A stretch of DNA of 64,000 bases from Streptosporangiales bacterium (lineage in GTDB: Bacteria > Actinomycetota > Actinomycetes > Streptosporangiales > WHST01), in NCBI GenBank assembly GCA_009379825.1, contig WHTA01000010.1, positions 1-64,000 on the forward strand. Direction: 5' to 3'. Position numbers and translations under genes: made by a program. Each line of letters starts with the position of its first letter. The stretch's first letter is position 1. This document shows, in pieces, positions 9,357 through 34,602 of the stretch. Under the pieces are notes generated by a model. That model was given only the letters and a program-made list of their open reading frames with translations. It did not search any database and was not told where the DNA came from.

Positions 9357-10190
9357 TCAGGCGCGCTTGGCGGCGCGCGCGTAGAGCAGGTCGGCGGTCA
9401 GCCGGTCGACGCGTTCTTCGGTCATCCGCTCGCGCAGGGCCGCGCGCACCCGGCTCGCGGCAATCCGGTCCATCGCGTCGACCAGCAACCGGTAGCCGGA
9501 TCCGAGGATGACGGTCCAGAAGGCGTCCGGGTCCGTCGGACGTGTAACGGTCTCGCGCTCGACGGCCGGGGCCGGCAGGCCGGCTGCGGCGAACACCCCG
9601 GCGAGCTTCTCCGGGCTGTTGATCCGCTCCCACGGGATGCTCGCCGGTCGCAGGTCAGGACGGACCGCGCCGACCGCGTCCAGGTACATGGCGTTGCCGG
9701 GCTCGAGCGCCCGAGCACCCCAGGTGGTCACCGCGAGGGTGCCGCCTGGCCGCACGACGCGCCACAGCTCGGCCACCACCGCCGGCAGCTCGACGGCGAA
9801 GTACAGCCCGAGCACGCAGAGCACCACATCGTAGGTCGCGTCCGGCTGGTCCAACGCCGTCATCTCACCGCGGACGAAGCGCACGTTGGTCAGGCCCTGC
9901 CGTGCGGCCTTCACCCGTGCCCGCGCCAGTGGACCGTCCGCGATGTCGATGCCGACGACGGAGCCGACCGGCGCCACTCGCGCAGCGGCGGGCAACGCCG
10001 ACGCGCCCGTGCCGCAGCAGACGTCCAGTACGCGGTGCCCGGGCGCGACGCCGGCCAGAGCGACGGTCCGCGCGCCGCAGTGGTCCCAGAAGAACAGCTG
10101 CGGGTCGTCGAAGTGCTCCGCCGCGGCGTTGAACGTGGCACGCACCAACCGGGCACGGGTGCCATCACGCACCGCAGGTCCGGTTGCCAT
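9357..10190 (-). CDS. SAM-dependent methyltransferase of the RiPP-like locus
   Basis: A 277-residue class I methyltransferase with motif I VLDVCCGTGASALP, then VVGIDIADG and a VVRPGGTLAVTTWG strand, as in the UbiE/Methyltransf_11 group. It is the last gene of the peptide operon. Its ATG at 10190 lies 2 nt after the stop codon of the small peptide gene at 10193-10435, which argues for translational coupling. By position it is the only visible candidate tailoring enzyme for the peptides; N- or C-terminal or side-chain methylation are all possible. A general small-molecule methyltransferase caught in the operon is the alternative. Confidence 0.8.
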   Translation of the reverse strand: MATGPAVRDGTRARLVRATFNAAAEHFDDPQLFFWDHCGARTVALAGVAPGHRVLDVCCGTGASALPAAARVAPVGSVVGIDIADGPLARARVKAARQGLTNVRFVRGEMTALDQPDATYDVVLCVLGLYFAVELPAVVAELWRVVRPGGTLAVTTWGARALEPGNAMYLDAVGAVRPDLRPASIPWERINSPEKLAGVFAAAGLPAPAVERETVTRPTDPDAFWTVILGSGYRLLVDAMDRIAASRVRAALRERMTEERVDRLTADLLYARAAKRA

Positions 10191-10192
10191 GG

Positions 10193-10435
10193 TCACCCGA
10201 AGCCGAGCCACACGCAGGCTGCCGCGGCAGGTGGACAGCTCCACCCCCGCGTACCCGGGTGACGGAACCAGCTCGGGTCGCCCGGGTGATGGTCACCGTA
10301 GTTGCCGCCGAGCGGCACGACGAGGACCTCGAGGAGTTCGCCGCTGTTCGGGTCGATGATCGGCTTCCGTTCCATGAACTGCTCGTATGTCACCCGGCGG
10401 TCGATCGGCCGCTGCACTGGCAGGTTGAGTCGCAC
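10193..10435 (-). CDS. Small peptide with divergent leader motif (P4)
   Basis: An 80-residue product beginning near LNLPVQRPIDRR, a one-residue-shorter version of the leader motif in the three upstream peptides. It lacks GVEA and continues into a longer acidic/aromatic region (PNSGELLEVLVVPLGGNYG, then HHPGDPSWF) ending with a Cys-Pro-Ala-rich tail and two cysteines. It may be a precursor of a different class, or a small accessory protein that binds the protease or methyltransferase. GTG at 10435 has GGGAG 7 nt upstream; a longer start at 10474 (GTG) is possible. The stop is 2 nt before the methyltransferase start. Confidence 0.55.
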   Translation of the reverse strand: MRLNLPVQRPIDRRVTYEQFMERKPIIDPNSGELLEVLVVPLGGNYGDHHPGDPSWFRHPGTRGWSCPPAAAACVWLGFG

Positions 10436-10539
10436 GTGCGTACTCCCGTCGTCTGCGCGCCGAAGCGCGCTCACGCCATGAACTTGCAGCCGACCGGGCC
10501 GTCAGCTCTGTCGCCGGCGGCCCGGTCAGCACGCCCCGG

Positions 10540-10746
10540 TCAGATACCGAAACCGCCCAGGATCGGCAGCGCTGTCTGGGCGACGGTGCCGACACCGCGG
10601 ACGATGTCGTCGAAGAGGCCGTCGGCCTCGACACCACCACCACTGGCACCACCCGCGCCGGCACGCGTCACCGGCACCGCCTGCGACGGCAGGCTCAGTG
10701 CCGGCGACCGCAGTGCGGCCTTTGTGTGAATCGGCTGGTCGATCAT
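10540..10746 (-). CDS. Putative cyanobactin-like precursor peptide P3
   Basis: A 68-residue peptide. The leader carries LPSQAVPVTR at residues 19-28 and a Gly/Ala linker, then GVEA at 38-41, which resembles cyanobactin recognition sequence II, G(L/V)E(A/P)S. If cleaved after GVEA the core would be 27 residues, starting DGLFDDIVRGVG and ending PILGGFGI. It is hydrophobic and can form an amphipathic helix. GGAG lies 6 nt before the ATG at 10746. It is the third of three tandem peptide genes with the same plan, downstream of a PatA/PatG-type protease. No C-terminal AYDG-like macrocyclisation signal is present. Confidence 0.65.
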   Translation of the reverse strand: MIDQPIHTKAALRSPALSLPSQAVPVTRAGAGGASGGGVEADGLFDDIVRGVGTVAQTALPILGGFGI

Positions 10747-10789
10747 CTCTCACTCCTCACTCGATGAACCTTCGTGCTGGCGTGGTCGT

Positions 10790-10975
10790 TCAGCTGTTCA
10801 GCCACTCCTTGGCGTAGGGCCACACCACTCCACCGGCGCCCTCGAGGACGTCACCGATCGGCAAGCCCCAGAGGTTGGCCTCCACGCCGTTGCCGGTGGC
10901 CGTGGCCGCCGACGGACCGATGCGGTTCACTGGTGCCGCCTGCAGCGGCATGTGCAGGTTCGCTGTGTGCGTCAT
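10790..10975 (-). CDS. Putative cyanobactin-like precursor peptide P2
   Basis: A 61-residue peptide with leader motif MPLQAAPVNR (residues 9-18), an 11-residue linker and GVEA at 30-33. The inferred core of 28 residues runs from NLWGLPIGDVLEG through GGVVWPYAKEWLNS. It has three tryptophans, is acidic in the first half and has a Pro-Tyr near the end. GAGGAG lies about 5 nt before the ATG at 10975. Same orientation and spacing as P1 and P3; function is inferred only from motif sharing and position. Confidence 0.65.
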   Translation of the reverse strand: MTHTANLHMPLQAAPVNRIGPSAATATGNGVEANLWGLPIGDVLEGAGGVVWPYAKEWLNS

Positions 10976-11035
10976 CTCGTCTCCTCGTGGTTGCGTTCCA
11001 CCTGCGGCCGGTCAGCGCCAGGCGTCGGCGGACGC

Positions 11036-11230
11036 CTAGACCGACACCCCGTACTGCGTCGCGTAGCACATCTGCCTGGCCATGCCCCTGAGGTGGCTAC
11101 AGCGCGACTGGGCTGCTTCCACACCACCTTCGGACTCCTGCCACGCCAGGTCGTAGTGATCCCGGTTCACCGGGCGTGCCTGGACCGGCAGCGCGACGGT
11201 CGACCGCCGGGATCGCAGTGGGCTCGACAT
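11036..11230 (-). CDS. Putative cyanobactin-like precursor peptide P1
   Basis: A 64-residue peptide with leader motif LPVQARPVNR (residues 14-23), a 12-residue linker and GVEA at 36-39. The inferred 25-residue core is basic and contains two cysteines (C44 and C55) that could form a disulfide or a thioether-type ring, with the end MCYATQYGVSV. A strong AGGAGGT lies 6 nt before the ATG at 11230. It directly follows the protease gene (30 nt gap), so the two are almost certainly co-transcribed. Confidence 0.7.
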   Translation of the reverse strand: MSSPLRSRRSTVALPVQARPVNRDHYDLAWQESEGGVEAAQSRCSHLRGMARQMCYATQYGVSV

Positions 11231-11260
11231 CGGTTACCTCCTAGGAATCGTGGCCACCGC

Positions 11261-13426
11261 TCAGGTACCGAGGAACCGGTGCGCGGGCGCAAGGCTGACG
11301 GGCAGCTCGTCGCTGACGTCGATGGTGAACAGGTACGAGACCCGGGCGCGTCTCTCGTTCTCCGGGTCGAAGAAGGTCGCCACGACGTCCCAGCAGTCCG
11401 AGTCGACCCGGTCGTAAGGGCTCTTCGCGACGGTGATGGTGTCCAGCGTGTAGAGGCCGACGTTCCTGCCCGGCACGTACCTGCCGGACATCAGGCCTGC
11501 CCTGATCTCGTTGGTGAACATGAACGCGTTGGTGCCCGCGTAGTTCAGCGCACGGTCGGCCGGCGTCTGGCCGAGGTTCCTGAACTGGTAGTACACCTTG
11601 TCCAGGAAGGCCCGGACGTTCTGCCGCAGGATGTCTTCGTCGAGCTCGTCCTCCGTGGTCTTCGCGACATCGGCGGTGACCTGCTCCACGGAGGCTTCCA
11701 CCAACGCCGCTTCGTTCCAGGTGTGGATGCCGCGGCTCTTGACCTCGACGACGGGCACGACCTGTCCGGAGAACAGCCGCACCGTGCGGTTCGTCAGCAC
11801 ACCGGGAACGGACACCCGGGAGATGAAGCCGCCCTCGTCGACCGGGCGTGCCTGCCCGGCGATCGCGTCCCTGAACATCTTGTACACGTGCGACACCGGC
11901 GGGAAGGCGGACAGGTTGGTCAGCATCTCGGCGAGATCCGCCGGCCGGCCGGCCGCCTGCTCGAGGCGATCACTGTCCCAGGTCGGGTCGACGACCGGCT
12001 CGCCCCAGTCCATGCCGACCGGCAGCTCCGCCTCGAGCGCGTAGAGCGGAGTGCGGTCCATGTTGAGGGTCCACGTCAGCTTGTCCGACGCCCACGGATT
12101 CCGCGCCAGGTAGGCACTGAGCTGGTTGGGGTCGTACGGGTTCGCCGCCACCGTGGTGTAGGTCTCGGGCTGCTCGCCGCCCGGCGCGGACACCGCGAAC
12201 GGGTCCATCTGTTGCCGGAAGCTGTCCCTGCGCGCCTCGGTACGGAAGTCGAAGCCGATCGTGCCGATCACGTAGACCAGCGACTTCGCACTCTCCCCGC
12301 CGCACTCGCAGCTGGCGGCCGGGCTCACGCCGGGTGCCGGCCGAGCGGGCGCGGCAGCTGCCGGTACCGCGCTGGCCTGCGCACCTACGGCGGGCTCGAC
12401 CGGCACTTCGGCCGGTGGGGCGCCCTCACACGCCGCCTGTACACCCGCCGGCTGAGCTTCAGGTGCAGCCGGCACCGCCTGCTGTGCCGCGGGCTGCACG
12501 TCCTGCGCTTGCATCGTTGGTGAGTCGGAAGTCGTCACAGCTATGTCCCTTCCCCGAGTGATCAGGGCGTACGCCCTTGCCCCGTTGAGCTTTCCGGCGA
12601 GGTACTTACGGCAGTCGGGTGCGACCACCGGGTCGCATTCGGTAGCGCCGCCGACGATGGCGTCGCGTACCGCCAACGGATCGGGCGCGTGCCCATCGGC
12701 CAACTGGCTCGCCAGCAACAGCGCGGCGACGCCGGACACCACGGGCGTGGCGAAGCTGCTGCCGGTGAGCGCCTGCTCCCCGCCACCGGGCGCCGCGCCC
12801 ACGATGTGCTGGCCAGGGGCGAGCACACCGTTGTTCTGGTACTCCTCGCCCCAGTTGTTCGCCGCGAGCGGCTCGCCGCTCCCGTCCGTCGCACCGACGG
12901 CGACCACCGAGGAGACCGCCGCGGGCACCTGCAGACAGTCGCATCCGTCGTTGCCGACCGCGGCTACGACGAGCACGCCGTTGTCCTCGCACAGTTGTAG
13001 CGCTCGGGCGAGGATGGGGTCCGGCACTCCGCCAGGGGTGCGCTCACCACCGCTGATGTTCACGACGTGGGCGCCCTCTTGCACCGCACGCTCGATGGCT
13101 CGCGCGAGATCGAGCTGCGACACGCGCGTGTCGCTGCCGTCGCGGAACACCGGCAGTAGCAACCCGCGGCAGCGCGGCGCGATACCGACGACGGGCGAAC
13201 CGGGTTGGCCGAAGAGCAAGCTCGTCACGTGCGTACCGTGCAGCGACATCGGGCCGATTCCCGCGGGATCCTGCACGAGGGTCCCGAGCCTGGTCAGATC
13301 CGCCCCGGCGAGACACGGGTGCGCCTGGTCGACGGGACCGTCGAGAACGGCGATGCAGATCGCGGGGTCACCCAGATTCTGGGCCAGTCGCAGTGGCAAC
13401 CCTGGCACGGCCGACCGTACGTCCAC
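11261..13426 (-). CDS. PatA/PatG-family cyanobactin-type maturation protease
   Basis: A 721-residue protein. Residues 1-290 are a subtilisin-like S8 protease with D29 (VLDG), H63 (LHGTHV), oxyanion N159 (AVGND) and S224 (TGSSFATP). An Ala/Pro linker (about 296-371) with a CEC pair at 373-375 leads to a C-terminal region (381-721) starting LVYVIGTIGFDFRTEARRDS, which matches the C-terminal domains of PatG-type proteases. There is no signal peptide, so processing should be cytoplasmic. The likely job is leader cleavage of the peptides encoded next door, perhaps after GVEA. GGAGGT lies 5 nt before the GTG at 13426. Macrocyclase activity is uncertain because the peptides lack an AYDG-like tail. 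Confidence 0.8.
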   Translation of the reverse strand: MDVRSAVPGLPLRLAQNLGDPAICIAVLDGPVDQAHPCLAGADLTRLGTLVQDPAGIGPMSLHGTHVTSLLFGQPGSPVVGIAPRCRGLLLPVFRDGSDTRVSQLDLARAIERAVQEGAHVVNISGGERTPGGVPDPILARALQLCEDNGVLVVAAVGNDGCDCLQVPAAVSSVVAVGATDGSGEPLAANNWGEEYQNNGVLAPGQHIVGAAPGGGEQALTGSSFATPVVSGVAALLLASQLADGHAPDPLAVRDAIVGGATECDPVVAPDCRKYLAGKLNGARAYALITRGRDIAVTTSDSPTMQAQDVQPAAQQAVPAAPEAQPAGVQAACEGAPPAEVPVEPAVGAQASAVPAAAAPARPAPGVSPAASCECGGESAKSLVYVIGTIGFDFRTEARRDSFRQQMDPFAVSAPGGEQPETYTTVAANPYDPNQLSAYLARNPWASDKLTWTLNMDRTPLYALEAELPVGMDWGEPVVDPTWDSDRLEQAAGRPADLAEMLTNLSAFPPVSHVYKMFRDAIAGQARPVDEGGFISRVSVPGVLTNRTVRLFSGQVVPVVEVKSRGIHTWNEAALVEASVEQVTADVAKTTEDELDEDILRQNVRAFLDKVYYQFRNLGQTPADRALNYAGTNAFMFTNEIRAGLMSGRYVPGRNVGLYTLDTITVAKSPYDRVDSDCWDVVATFFDPENERRARVSYLFTIDVSDELPVSLAPAHRFLGT

Positions 13427-13635: not shown

Positions 13636-16251
13636 TCAGCAGTCGAGCACCATGGCAGCGAGATCGGCCCGCCTGGTGACGCCGAGCTTCGCCGACGCCC
13701 GGTAGAGATGGCCTTCGACCGTACGCACCGACACGACCAACCGGTCCGCGATCTCCTTGTTCGTCAGCCCCCGCGCGGCCAGCGTGACGATCTCCCGCTC
13801 CCGCCCCGTCAGGGGGAGCGGGCGTGCGACCGCGACCAGCGCCGGCGTCCTGGCGCCCTCGCAGCTCTGCGCCAGGCGGTACGCCCGCGCCGCCGCCGAC
13901 TGCGCCGCGGCACCTGCTCCGCGACGGCCATACCCGGTCGCGGCCTGCGCGGCGGCGTCGGCAGCCGGCACCAGGTCGCCCATCCGTTCCCACCGCACCG
14001 ACGCCTCGTCGAGAGCCACACCGTCGTCCGCGCCGAGCGCGGCGGCGTGTGCGGCGGCGACCTGCGCCCGCGGGCCGTCGACCGACCTCGTCAACTCGGC
14101 CAGCCGTGCCGCCGGGGTCGGATCGCCGAAGCAGACGGCCGTGTGCAGCGCCAGCACTTCGTGTGCGAGCTGCCCGGCCCGTGCCGCCTCACCGGCTGCG
14201 GTGGTGGCCAGCTCGATCGCCTGCGTGACGGCACCTCCCGCGGCGGCCACCCAGGCGTGGGCCAGCGACAGCTCGGGAGCCAGGAAACCGAACGCGGGAT
14301 GCCGGCCCGCTTGCAACTCCGCCAGCGTCCCCTCGGCCGCGGCCCGGTCGCCCGACATCGCGAACGCCTCGGTCAGGCTGAGCAGGCAACGGAACTCCCA
14401 GCCGGGCACGTCGGCATCGGCCAGGCCGGCCCGCGCCTCCCGCAACCACCTGACCGCCGTCCGCAACCGCCCGCGCGCGAGGGCAGCATGCCCGAGCAGG
14501 GTCACGCCCATCAGGTGCAGGGGGCCGAACACGCTCGCACTCTCCGCCCGGCGGTCGTGCGCGATCCGGTCGAGCTCGTCCAGCCGGCCGGCCAGCCGCA
14601 GCACGATCATGTGCAGGTCGCTCAGCCCGAACCGGAGCACGGCACCGTCGAACGGCCGGGTGCCGGCCGCGTAGCCCCGCGCCGCCGCCGCCTCCACCTC
14701 GTCGCAGCGACCGGTGAGCCCGAGACCGAGGACCAACCCCCACGTCGCGAGCACCACCTGCTCGTCCGGCAGGTCGGCAGCGGCGAGGGCGGCACGCGCG
14801 CACCGCACGGCCTCGTCCGGCCGACCGGCGAAGCCGTGGAACGCGGCACGCATCGCCGTCAGTGCCTGCCGTTGCGCGGCGTCGCTGATCGCCGCGTCGG
14901 CCGCGTCTATGACGGCGACGGCCTCGGCCGGTTTGCGCAACGTCCAGAACAGGTTCCCCGACCGCACGACTGCCACCTGCCGGCGCTGGACGTCTGTACG
15001 AGCGACCTCGCCGAGCTCGGCGAGCTCACTGTCGACCTTGGCGCCGCGGTCGAGCCAGGTGAGCGCGTACGCCAAGGTGAGCCTTGGTTCGAATCCGCCG
15101 CCGGCGGCGATCGCCGCACGGGCGAGTCGTTCCGCAAGTGCGAGGTCGACGAAGCGGATCGCCGACTGCGCCGCGGAGGCCAAGAGCTCGGGATCCGGCC
15201 GCAGGTCGGAGTCGAGGGCGAACACGGCGCGACGCAACCTGTCACTGGCGCGCCGGTCGGCGAACGTCGCCATGGCGGTGGCGATCCGGCCAGCGAGTCG
15301 GCGGGCGCGCAGCCGACCGATCGCCGCGCGCCGCACTTCGCCGAAGAGCGGGTGGGTCAACCTGGCCCGTAACCGCTGGCCGTCGCGCTCGACGGTCAGC
15401 ACACCCGCCGCCTCCGCCGCTTCCACCACCGCGGGGTCGACCAGCTGCAGCAGGAGAGGTACGCCCAGCGGCTCCCCTACGGCCAGCACGTCGACCGCTT
15501 CGCGTACCGGCTCCGACAGAGCGCCCATCCGTGCCTCTATCAGCTCGGCCAACCCGGGCGTGATGGCCGGTTTCCCCGTCCACCGCCAGACGCCGTGGAC
15601 CGAGCTCAACCGGCCGGCCGCCCGCTCACCGTCGACGAGCTGATGGAGGTACAGCACGTTGCCCTGGGTCAGCGCCCACATCCGCGCCGCGCTGATGCTC
15701 TCCACCGGGCCACCGAGCACTGCCTCGAGCAACCTCGTGCTCTCGTCCTCGGACAACGGCTGCAGCTCCAGCCGGTCGAGGTGCCCGTCCTTCCACAACG
15801 CCGTCACCGCATCAGGCGATGTCCCACCGGTCCGCACCGTGACGACGACCGCGGCCGCCCGGCTCACCACCAGCTGGTGGACCAGCAGGGCCGAGAGCTC
15901 GTCGAGCAGGTGCGCGTCGTCGACGCCCACGACCACACCGGCGGTGTCCGGTACGGCGAGCAACCTGTCCCTGGCCGCCTGCAGTGCGCGGGCCGGGCCA
16001 CCGCCGGCGGCTCCCACCCAGGCACCGAACGCACCCATCGGCACCTGACGCGCGGAGAGGGTCGCGGCCACCCACCGGGTGACGTCACCGCGCCGTCCGG
16101 TCGAGGCGAGCGTTTCGCGTGCCAGCCGGGTCTTGCCTACGCCCGCTGCTCCCGCAAGCACAGCGCCTCGTGGTCCGTCGCGCGGGCGTAATGCGTCGTG
16201 CAGAAAACCCAGTTCCTCGGCCCGCCCGACAAGCGGCCACTCGCACCCCAT
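13636..16251 (-). CDS. LuxR family regulator with AAA/STAND ATPase (LAL type)
   Basis: An 871-residue regulator. The N-terminal ATPase has Walker A GAAGVGKT (34-41) and a Walker B-like VVVGVDDAHLLD around residue 110. A long helical repeat middle region (TPR-like, about 300-800) follows, and a C-terminal LuxR HTH (about 812-871, LTGREREIVTLAARGLTNKE then VRTVEGHLYRASAKLGV) ends the protein. Such large LuxR proteins usually activate secondary-metabolite genes. It lies between operator A (upstream, before the small HTH gene) and operators B and C (before the protease operon), so it likely controls both. The ATG at 16251 begins MGCEWPLVGRAEEL, a typical start; no clear Shine-Dalgarno is seen. 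Confidence 0.85.
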   Translation of the reverse strand: MGCEWPLVGRAEELGFLHDALRPRDGPRGAVLAGAAGVGKTRLARETLASTGRRGDVTRWVAATLSARQVPMGAFGAWVGAAGGGPARALQAARDRLLAVPDTAGVVVGVDDAHLLDELSALLVHQLVVSRAAAVVVTVRTGGTSPDAVTALWKDGHLDRLELQPLSEDESTRLLEAVLGGPVESISAARMWALTQGNVLYLHQLVDGERAAGRLSSVHGVWRWTGKPAITPGLAELIEARMGALSEPVREAVDVLAVGEPLGVPLLLQLVDPAVVEAAEAAGVLTVERDGQRLRARLTHPLFGEVRRAAIGRLRARRLAGRIATAMATFADRRASDRLRRAVFALDSDLRPDPELLASAAQSAIRFVDLALAERLARAAIAAGGGFEPRLTLAYALTWLDRGAKVDSELAELGEVARTDVQRRQVAVVRSGNLFWTLRKPAEAVAVIDAADAAISDAAQRQALTAMRAAFHGFAGRPDEAVRCARAALAAADLPDEQVVLATWGLVLGLGLTGRCDEVEAAAARGYAAGTRPFDGAVLRFGLSDLHMIVLRLAGRLDELDRIAHDRRAESASVFGPLHLMGVTLLGHAALARGRLRTAVRWLREARAGLADADVPGWEFRCLLSLTEAFAMSGDRAAAEGTLAELQAGRHPAFGFLAPELSLAHAWVAAAGGAVTQAIELATTAAGEAARAGQLAHEVLALHTAVCFGDPTPAARLAELTRSVDGPRAQVAAAHAAALGADDGVALDEASVRWERMGDLVPAADAAAQAATGYGRRGAGAAAQSAAARAYRLAQSCEGARTPALVAVARPLPLTGREREIVTLAARGLTNKEIADRLVVSVRTVEGHLYRASAKLGVTRRADLAAMVLDC

Positions 16252-33837: not shown

Positions 33838-34602
33838 TCAGCTCAGCAAGGCAAGGGTGACGAGGGTGGTCGTACTCACCGTCTCCACCACAGCGCCGTA
33901 GACATCGCCGGTGACGCCGCCCAGCCGCCGCACCGCGTACGCGCGCAGCAGCGCACCGGCCAGCAGCCCGGCCGAAGCGGCGACGGCCAGCCGCCAGCCG
34001 AGCGCGACCGCACCGAAGATGCCGGGCAGCGCCGCCAACGCCACCACGGCCACCGCGTACGCGTACCGCACCACGCGCGGCACTGCACCGGTGACCAACG
34101 CGCCGAAGCCGTCCGTCCGCGCACCCGGCGCACCCGTCGCCAGCACCACGCCGACCCGCGCTGCCACCGCAGACGCGCACAGCGCGGCCGCCGCCCACCA
34201 GATCGGCACCGCGGCGAGCGCCACCACCTGACACGCAAGGGCGAAGCCCAGCGCCACCACGCCCATCGGCCCGATGTCGGAACGTCGCATGATCGCCAAC
34301 GCGTCGCTCGCCGGCCGCCGGCTGCCGAGGCCGTCGGCGGTGTCGGCCAGCCCGTCCAGGTGCAGCGCGCCTGTGGCCACGGCGAGCAACCCGACGGCGA
34401 GCAGGCCGGCGAGCAACCGACCTGGAGTGCCGTCCACGGCGACCCGTACGCCCACGAGCACGGCTGCGCTCCCGGCAGCGAGCAGCACCCCGACGACCGG
34501 CAGGCACAACACCGCCCGCTTCGCATCGACGCGGCGCACCTCCACCGGCCCGGCCACCGGCAGCACGGTGAACAGGCTCAGCGCCGTACGCAACGGACTC
34601 AT
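33838..34602 (-). CDS. cobS: Adenosylcobinamide-GDP ribazoletransferase (CobS/CobV)
   Basis: A 254-residue membrane enzyme joining adenosylcobinamide-GDP and alpha-ribazole phosphate in the last assembly step of the nucleotide loop. It has several hydrophobic segments and the family motifs ALHLDGLADTADGLG (acidic metal-binding pair) and RRLGGVTGDVYGAVVE. The ATG at 34602 overlaps the stop of the upstream fusion gene (ATGA). It is the final gene of the 19-gene operon. Confidence 0.92.
   Translation of the reverse strand: MSPLRTALSLFTVLPVAGPVEVRRVDAKRAVLCLPVVGVLLAAGSAAVLVGVRVAVDGTPGRLLAGLLAVGLLAVATGALHLDGLADTADGLGSRRPASDALAIMRRSDIGPMGVVALGFALACQVVALAAVPIWWAAAALCASAVAARVGVVLATGAPGARTDGFGALVTGAVPRVVRYAYAVAVVALAALPGIFGAVALGWRLAVAASAGLLAGALLRAYAVRRLGGVTGDVYGAVVETVSTTTLVTLALLS

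Follow-up and report, generated by a model that had tools for sequence, protein, structure and literature searches.

A stand-alone PatA-type protease locus in an actinomycete that probably frees linear peptides from cyanobactin-like leaders

What does a cyanobactin protease do when the other enzymes of its pathway are missing? The usual picture of cyanobactins is of a mostly macrocyclic family from cyanobacteria that relies on two proteases, PatA and PatG. The question is raised by a locus in a Streptosporangiales bacterium (assembly GCA_009379825.1, contig WHTA01000010.1; the window, meaning the whole stretch of DNA analysed, is 64,000 nucleotides), where a single PatA-type protease lies next to three short leader-bearing peptides, a PatB-like small protein, and a methyltransferase. 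All these genes lie on the minus strand, with little DNA between them, at the positions that an earlier reading of the sequence alone had given. We consider, with a probability of about 0.7, that the locus is a stand-alone PatA module that frees linear, probably membrane-active, bacteriocin-like peptides. That sequence-only reading is supported in part: a protease of the cyanobactin family beside its own leader peptides, the lack of YcaO, and a reduced pathway that leaves leader removal to a single protease all hold up.

The protease consists of an S8 domain (residues ~1–290), a Pro/Ala-rich linker, a PatG_D domain (384–482), and the PatG_C domain of unknown function (DUF; 599–718). It scores 616 bits against TIGR03895, the PatA/PatG family of maturation proteases (curated cut-off 421), which makes it a member, and 112 bits against PF18065 (PatG_C); PF18047 and PF00082 are also matched. 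The catalytic residues D29, H63, N159, and S224 are all in place, as the earlier reading had them. The S8 domain is nearest by sequence to the PatA-type structures 4h6w (E 5e-97) and 4h6v (2e-92), whereas the PatG macrocyclase 4aks aligns with E 3e-47 and only from residue 60. The C-terminus matches the structure of the PatG DUF, 4uvq (E 1e-55). As the S8 domain is nearer 4h6w and 4h6v than 4aks, with the Asp-His-Asn-Ser set intact and with its placement in the tree (below), the protease is PatA and not PatG. The C-terminal half scores as PatG_D and PatG_C, with PatG_C and TIGR03895 far above cut-off, and not as an unrelated domain; the earlier label ‘PatA/PatG-type’ is corrected to PatA-type. 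The spacing between the catalytic Asp and His is 34 in this protease and similar in other PatA proteins, and was given no weight against a macrocyclase.

Peptides A, B1, and B2 are leader-bearing precursors beside a cyanobactin-family protease, as had been proposed. Each carries the leader motif LPxQxxPVxR close to its N-terminus, and GVEA-x precedes each core. The published cleavage consensus of PatA is G(L/V)E(A/P)S (PMC10885120). A site of this kind, recognition sequence II (RSII), is present in each precursor (GVEAA, GVEAN, and GVEAD), and most of 25 type-B peptides from this and related loci carry G-[VLI]-E-[AP]-x, with position 5 relaxed. The pattern P.Q..P[VIL].R occurs four times in the six frames of the window against 0.78 expected and is not very rare in this GC-rich DNA; three copies in three consecutive open reading frames (ORFs) of one strand within ~700 bp are a ~1e-8 event, which argues against chance, and the motif recurs in related loci. 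Shine-Dalgarno-like sequences (aggagg, gaggag) precede the genes for PatA and the three peptides (pepA, pepB1, and pepB2), with a weaker one at the PatB-like gene, and the GC content of third codon positions is of coding type in all of these (0.77–0.88). Chance ORFs were rejected on these sequences, the codon-position bias, and conservation. The leader of B1 matches TIGR04446 weakly (E 0.15) and a cyanobacterial type-B leader does so with E 0.002; profile alignment (hhalign) of type-B leaders with canonical cyanobactin leaders gives E 6.5e-6. Pfam and NCBIfam hold no family for the actinobacterial type-A peptides.

Table 1. Features of the stand-alone PatA locus in the window
Feature	Position	Strand	Basis or remark
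SAM (S-adenosylmethionine) methyltransferase (PF13649/UbiE-like)	9357..10190	-	same operon; not conserved in related loci
PatB-like small protein	10193..10435	-	LPVQRPIDR N-terminus; GDP..W; GW-x-C...C-x-W-x-G C-terminus
Precursor peptide B2	10540..10746	-	leader LPSQAVPVTR, site GVEAD, core GLFDDIVRGVGTVAQTALPILGGFGI (amphipathic helix)
Peptide B2 predicted site GVEAD	10621..10635	-	alignment
Peptide B2 leader motif LPSQAVPVTR	10663..10692	-	alignment
Precursor peptide B1	10790..10975	-	leader MPLQAAPVNR, site GVEAN, core LWGLPIGDVLEGAGGVVWPYAKEWLNS
Peptide B1 predicted site GVEAN	10874..10888	-	alignment
Peptide B1 leader motif MPLQAAPVNR	10922..10951	-	alignment
Precursor peptide A	11036..11230	-	leader LPVQARPVNR, site GVEAA, core CxxLxGxARxxCY (SRCSHLRGMARQMCYATQYGVSV)
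Peptide A GVEAA, predicted PatA cleavage region (RSII-like)	11111..11125	-	consensus G(L/V)E(A/P)S, PMC10885120
Peptide A leader motif LPVQARPVNR	11162..11191	-	alignment
PatA-type cyanobactin leader protease, 721 aa	11261..13426	-	TIGR03895, PF00082, PF18047, PF18065, PDB matches
LuxR/AAA (LAL-type) regulator	13636..16251	-	directly upstream of protease, same strand

The fourth small gene had been taken for a further precursor. That assignment was given up on profile comparison: its family, present in 7/8 actinobacterial loci of the stand-alone type, resembles PatB (hhalign probability 74.6%, E 3e-5), although the window protein itself gives no match to TIGR04220 (PatB/AcyB/McaB) by hmmscan. 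A cyanobacterial counterpart reaches E 0.0025 with that model over residues 1–22. In two cyanobacterial loci (L136, 9600 onward; L137, 9963 onward) the C-terminus of the PatB-like protein resembles type A (CGIFSGLSRAMCFAACGVF), suggesting a fusion of PatB with a type-A core, and given this ending the protein may have a double role.

YcaO is lacking not only from the window, as the sequence-only reading stated, but from the whole genome of the source bacterium. PatF-type prenyltransferases (TIGR04445) were found in none of the 10 stand-alone-type genomes, this one included, and in 5/5 canonical cyanobactin genomes searched as a control. The genome encodes one PatG_C protein and no second, other TIGR03895 matches being far below cut-off; Saccharopolyspora soli, the nearest relative, likewise has only one. 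In cyanobactin precursors the LAELSEE helix directs heterocyclisation and an AYDG/FAG tail is required by PatG (PMC10885120, PMC4663559). Leader alignment shows no LAELSEE YcaO-docking helix in the window precursors, and no precursor of the stand-alone type has the tail known as RSIII (AYDG, FAG, or FADE); the AYDG tail expected from the cyanobactin pattern is thus missing. The locus has the RSII site of a cyanobactin pathway and lacks its PatG macrocyclase and RSIII tail, together with the marks of the heterocyclised branch (YcaO and the LAELSEE helix) and the prenylated branch (PatF). The missing YcaO, which had seemed the unusual point, is not, because YcaO-free cyanobactins (anacyclamide and piricyclamide) are known; the unusual feature is the absence of PatG and of the RSIII tail. 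In its working the module corresponds to the opening step of cyanobactin maturation but, judged by PatG and RSIII, it is not a cyanobactin pathway; the most fitting name for it is a stand-alone PatA variant within the cyanobactin family.

The same module is found in seven other actinobacterial loci: in S. soli, in genomes G671 and G866, and on four named Streptomyces plasmids (a second S. xanthophaeus plasmid record, H3, was left out of the set); in Streptomyces these loci are thus both plasmid-borne and chromosomal. Beside PatA the module has a single type-A peptide, at least one and up to several of type B, and usually the PatB-like protein. Peptides stand beside the protease in 8/8 actinobacterial loci of this type, so the conservation on which the earlier proposal hung is there. 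Among 244 cyanobacterial genomes, 22 contain PatG_C, and at least five of these have a PatA with no PatG_C partner genome-wide, beside leader peptides. Two cyanobacterial plasmids, judged on the plasmid record alone, likewise carry a stand-alone PatA beside leader peptides, giving seven cyanobacterial genomes or plasmids in total. G1103 and G1210 were left out since their single PatG_C protein looked PatG-type (in one it lies beside a precursor with a FAGDDAE tail, in the other beside a PatF-like protein), as was G1216, with a partial PatG_C match. The type-A peptide occurs in the seven other actinobacterial loci and in two to three cyanobacterial ones. G1218 and G1274 encode both type-A (CYKLKGMARNICMAAY) and type-B (GIFDDVLGVAKTVAPIAAKAAVPFLTSLI) peptides that closely resemble the window's own (GMARQMCYA; GLFDDIVRGVGTVAQTALPILGGFGI), and the B2 core GLFDDIVRGVGTVAQTALPILGGFGI resembles the core GIFDDVLGVAKTVAPIAAKAAVPFLTSLI of cyanobacterial locus L137; the cargo of the remaining cyanobacterial stand-alone loci is cysteine-rich. 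Profile alignments across the two phyla give E 6e-9 for type A and E 9e-9 for type B.

In an IQ-TREE phylogeny of 39 proteins, with the stand-alone label set beforehand from gene content, the 15 stand-alone PatA proteins form one clade (ultrafast bootstrap 99, Shimodaira–Hasegawa-like approximate likelihood ratio test 94; present in 100% of 200 bootstrap trees). The clade splits into an actinobacterial (100/100) and a cyanobacterial (97/93) branch, and PatA from actinobacterial two-protease loci falls in a separate clade. The leaders are conserved and the cores vary. In Streptomyces NBC_00299 (L090), three leaders that are identical over 138/138 nucleotides precede cores of two different sequences, and a fourth leader (132/138) precedes a third core, as is typical of modular leaders and cores.

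The 25 type-B cores are hydrophobic (mean 0.39 versus −0.03 for the leaders) and amphipathic at 100° (mean z 1.71; leaders 0.18). At 60°, 130°, and 170° they are not (z −0.4 to −0.5). Related cores are not independent, and the summed z is therefore overestimated. AlphaFold2 run without an alignment predicted, with moderate confidence, a helix over both cores that were tried (A; B2, residues 42–65). In the mechanism that we favour, a cytosolic PatA (S8 with DUF) would recognise the shared LPxQxxPVxR motif of each precursor and cut after G-V-E-A/P-x, as the published consensus suggests, so that three linear cores would be freed, a pair of amphipathic helices of type B and a two-cysteine helix of type A. 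Without PatG and the RSIII tail no ring would be formed, and without YcaO and its docking helix no heterocycle. The PatB-like protein, having the same N-terminal motif, would probably work with PatA as an accessory. We propose that LPxQxxPVxR serves for docking, since the motif and the DUF remain once the other enzymes are gone. The freed peptides, under an antibiotic-type regulator, would most likely act on membranes in the manner of a bacteriocin or surfactant, to judge from the cores and their plasmid-borne, variable, multi-copy arrangement.

Several observations weigh against this interpretation. The isolated PatG DUF did not bind the precursor PatE′ by nuclear magnetic resonance (PMC4259220), which, for PatG at any rate, is evidence against a simple DUF–leader contact. 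If membrane-active peptides are freed in the cytosol, the producer needs export or immunity, and the locus has no dedicated exporter and no recognised immunity gene. Some B cores (e.g., L001_2 and L068_1) are not amphipathic, the cores carry almost no net charge where antimicrobial peptides are typically cationic, and the type-A peptides are not obviously membrane-active. The peptides also stay below the curated cut-offs of TIGR03678 and TIGR04446 (best 12.4 bits, for B1; cut-off 35).

Could the cores be modified after all? As a modified member of the ribosomally synthesised and post-translationally modified peptides, the product would be decorated before or after leader removal by the neighbouring methyltransferase or by an unlinked enzyme. 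The methyltransferase gene begins just past the stop codon of the PatB-like gene, and two cyanobacterial loci have a methyltransferase in that position; the latter, however, is of PF04072 and unrelated (BLASTP E 0.14), and no counterpart stands beside the peptides in any of the seven other actinobacterial loci (L001, L068, L081, and L087–L090). The earlier view of a decorating enzyme thus loses its footing, and a role as core enzyme was rejected for lack of conservation. The methyltransferase is probably accessory or unrelated, and we regard a modified product as unlikely. We are similarly doubtful that the mature products serve in signalling, or as surfactants in aerial growth, instead of as antibacterial weapons: the near-neutral hydrophobic cores, the actinomycete and cyanobacterial hosts, and the antibiotic- or development-type regulators upstream would suit such a role, whereas hypervariable, multi-copy cores on plasmids better fit a diversifying weapon than a fixed signal or surfactant.

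An ordinary macrocyclic pathway, in which the single protease would both remove the leader and cyclise the core, is highly improbable. Macrocyclases do belong to this protease family, and actinobacteria do have two-protease loci of macrocyclic type with FAG/FADE tails (L040, L045, and L046), yet the S8 domain matches PatA structures far better than the macrocyclase, precursors of the stand-alone type lack RSIII, their cores are 10–38 residues long, and the clade is apart from the two-protease loci. Macrocyclisation by the window protease was rejected on protease type, tail, and tree. Least probable of all is a conflict module in which stress or phage activates the protease to free membrane-damaging peptides inside the producer; the lack of an exporter beside a cytosolic protease, NB-ARC genes near two loci, and, just downstream of three cyanobacterial loci, a patatin close to the phospholipase effectors of CBASS (cyclic-oligonucleotide-based antiphage signalling system) speak for it, and leaders and protease of a natural-product family, antibiotic-type regulators, several precursors with variable cores (unusual for defence), and a patatin near only 1/8 actinobacterial PatA genes, 9 kb away, speak against it.

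With the stand-alone PatA module as the preferred reading, a wider proposal can be made, for which we put the chances at about even: a two-phylum class built on a monophyletic stand-alone PatA, in which the ancestral cyanobactin leader would do no more than tag linear, unmodified peptides (amphipathic helices, CxxLxGxARxxC, or cysteine-rich) for release, with a PatB-like helper. A full-text literature search, open-access and with subscription journals mostly outside it, gave no published description of a stand-alone PatA system. In the present branch, which spans cyanobacteria and actinobacteria and extends to Streptomyces plasmids, a PatA without PatG would release longer peptides, and the system is reduced to protease, leader, and PatB-like protein. 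The PatA/PatG DUF and PatB, which have no assigned function (PMC4259220), and the conserved N-terminal leader motif, for which we know of no explanation, are kept though every other enzyme is gone, and their persistence makes them testable in vitro with a single protease and a single substrate peptide. The variable cores, present in several copies, would also supply linear peptides encoded directly by genes, of a kind that standard models of precursors overlook.

Around the locus, the LuxR/AAA regulator is a possible pathway regulator; a BTAD regulator occupies the corresponding place adjoining related Streptomyces loci. An AlkZ-like DNA glycosylase (PF06224; 8225–9328, plus strand) is convergent with the operon, and positions 34599–56724 contain genes resembling corrin/cobalamin biosynthesis, judged by translated starts and gene order alone. 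A viral origin was rejected, as no relatives were found on viral contigs and PHROG gave no match for the peptides. In PADLOC the protease matches only a generic subtilase model. In the cyanobacterial stand-alone loci the patatin-like phospholipase genes lie just downstream of PatA (L136, 10112–11254; L137, 10271 onward; L139, 8375–9550), those of L136 and L139 matching the PADLOC models of CBASS phospholipase effectors strongly. Two equal-scoring PatG_C copies lie near both ends of a linear Streptomyces-like chromosome (G866:C1:12567 and 7071169). In L053–L058, L085, and L086, an S8 protease (~300 aa) and a PatG_C protein (~290–410 aa) are each encoded by a gene of their own, and the surroundings show no leader peptides recognisable as cyanobactin-like.

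Among known systems, class II or leaderless bacteriocins and amphibian peptides of the temporin and aurein type are short, hydrophobic, amphipathic linear helices like the window cores. They have a different leader and protease, and the putative likeness of the cores would be convergent. Linear cyanobactins (aeruginosamide/viridisamide; the MusD route of muscoride) share non-cyclic products from cyanobactin leaders; they use YcaO with prenyl- and methyltransferases on very short cores, whereas the stand-alone module has no conserved modifying enzyme and cores of 10–38 residues. The actinobacterial two-protease loci (L040–L051) share the phylum, a PatA homologue, a PatB-type small protein, and LPIQSAPVxR leaders, and differ in a second S8 protease, FAG/FADE tails, short cores, and a PatA of a different clade. 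PatA, the PatB-type protein, and the second S8 protease follow in the same order in L040, L042, L043, L045, L046, L047, and L051, and L082–L084 (f105) belong to this type as well; L040, L045, and L046/L047 also have precursors such as MNLPIQSAPVVRTINGAPSTDRDGAEQSLWPVVPIPGVPFADENDE with the look of genuine precursors of macrocyclic, heterocycle-free cyanobactins. The cyanobactin-like locus of the actinobacterium Saccharopolyspora sp. NFXS83 (PMC10145562) is provisionally grouped with them. The cyanobactins without heterocycles, namely the anacyclamide, piricyclamide, and prenylagaramide systems (TIGR04446 precursors), share with the window the lack of YcaO, a PatA-type protease, the LPxQxxPVxR leader, a site of the G-x-E-x-S type, and multiple precursor genes with variable cores. 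They own a PatG macrocyclase, a PatF prenyltransferase, and an RSIII tail, all three absent from the stand-alone module, the cores of which are longer and are helical or contain cysteine.

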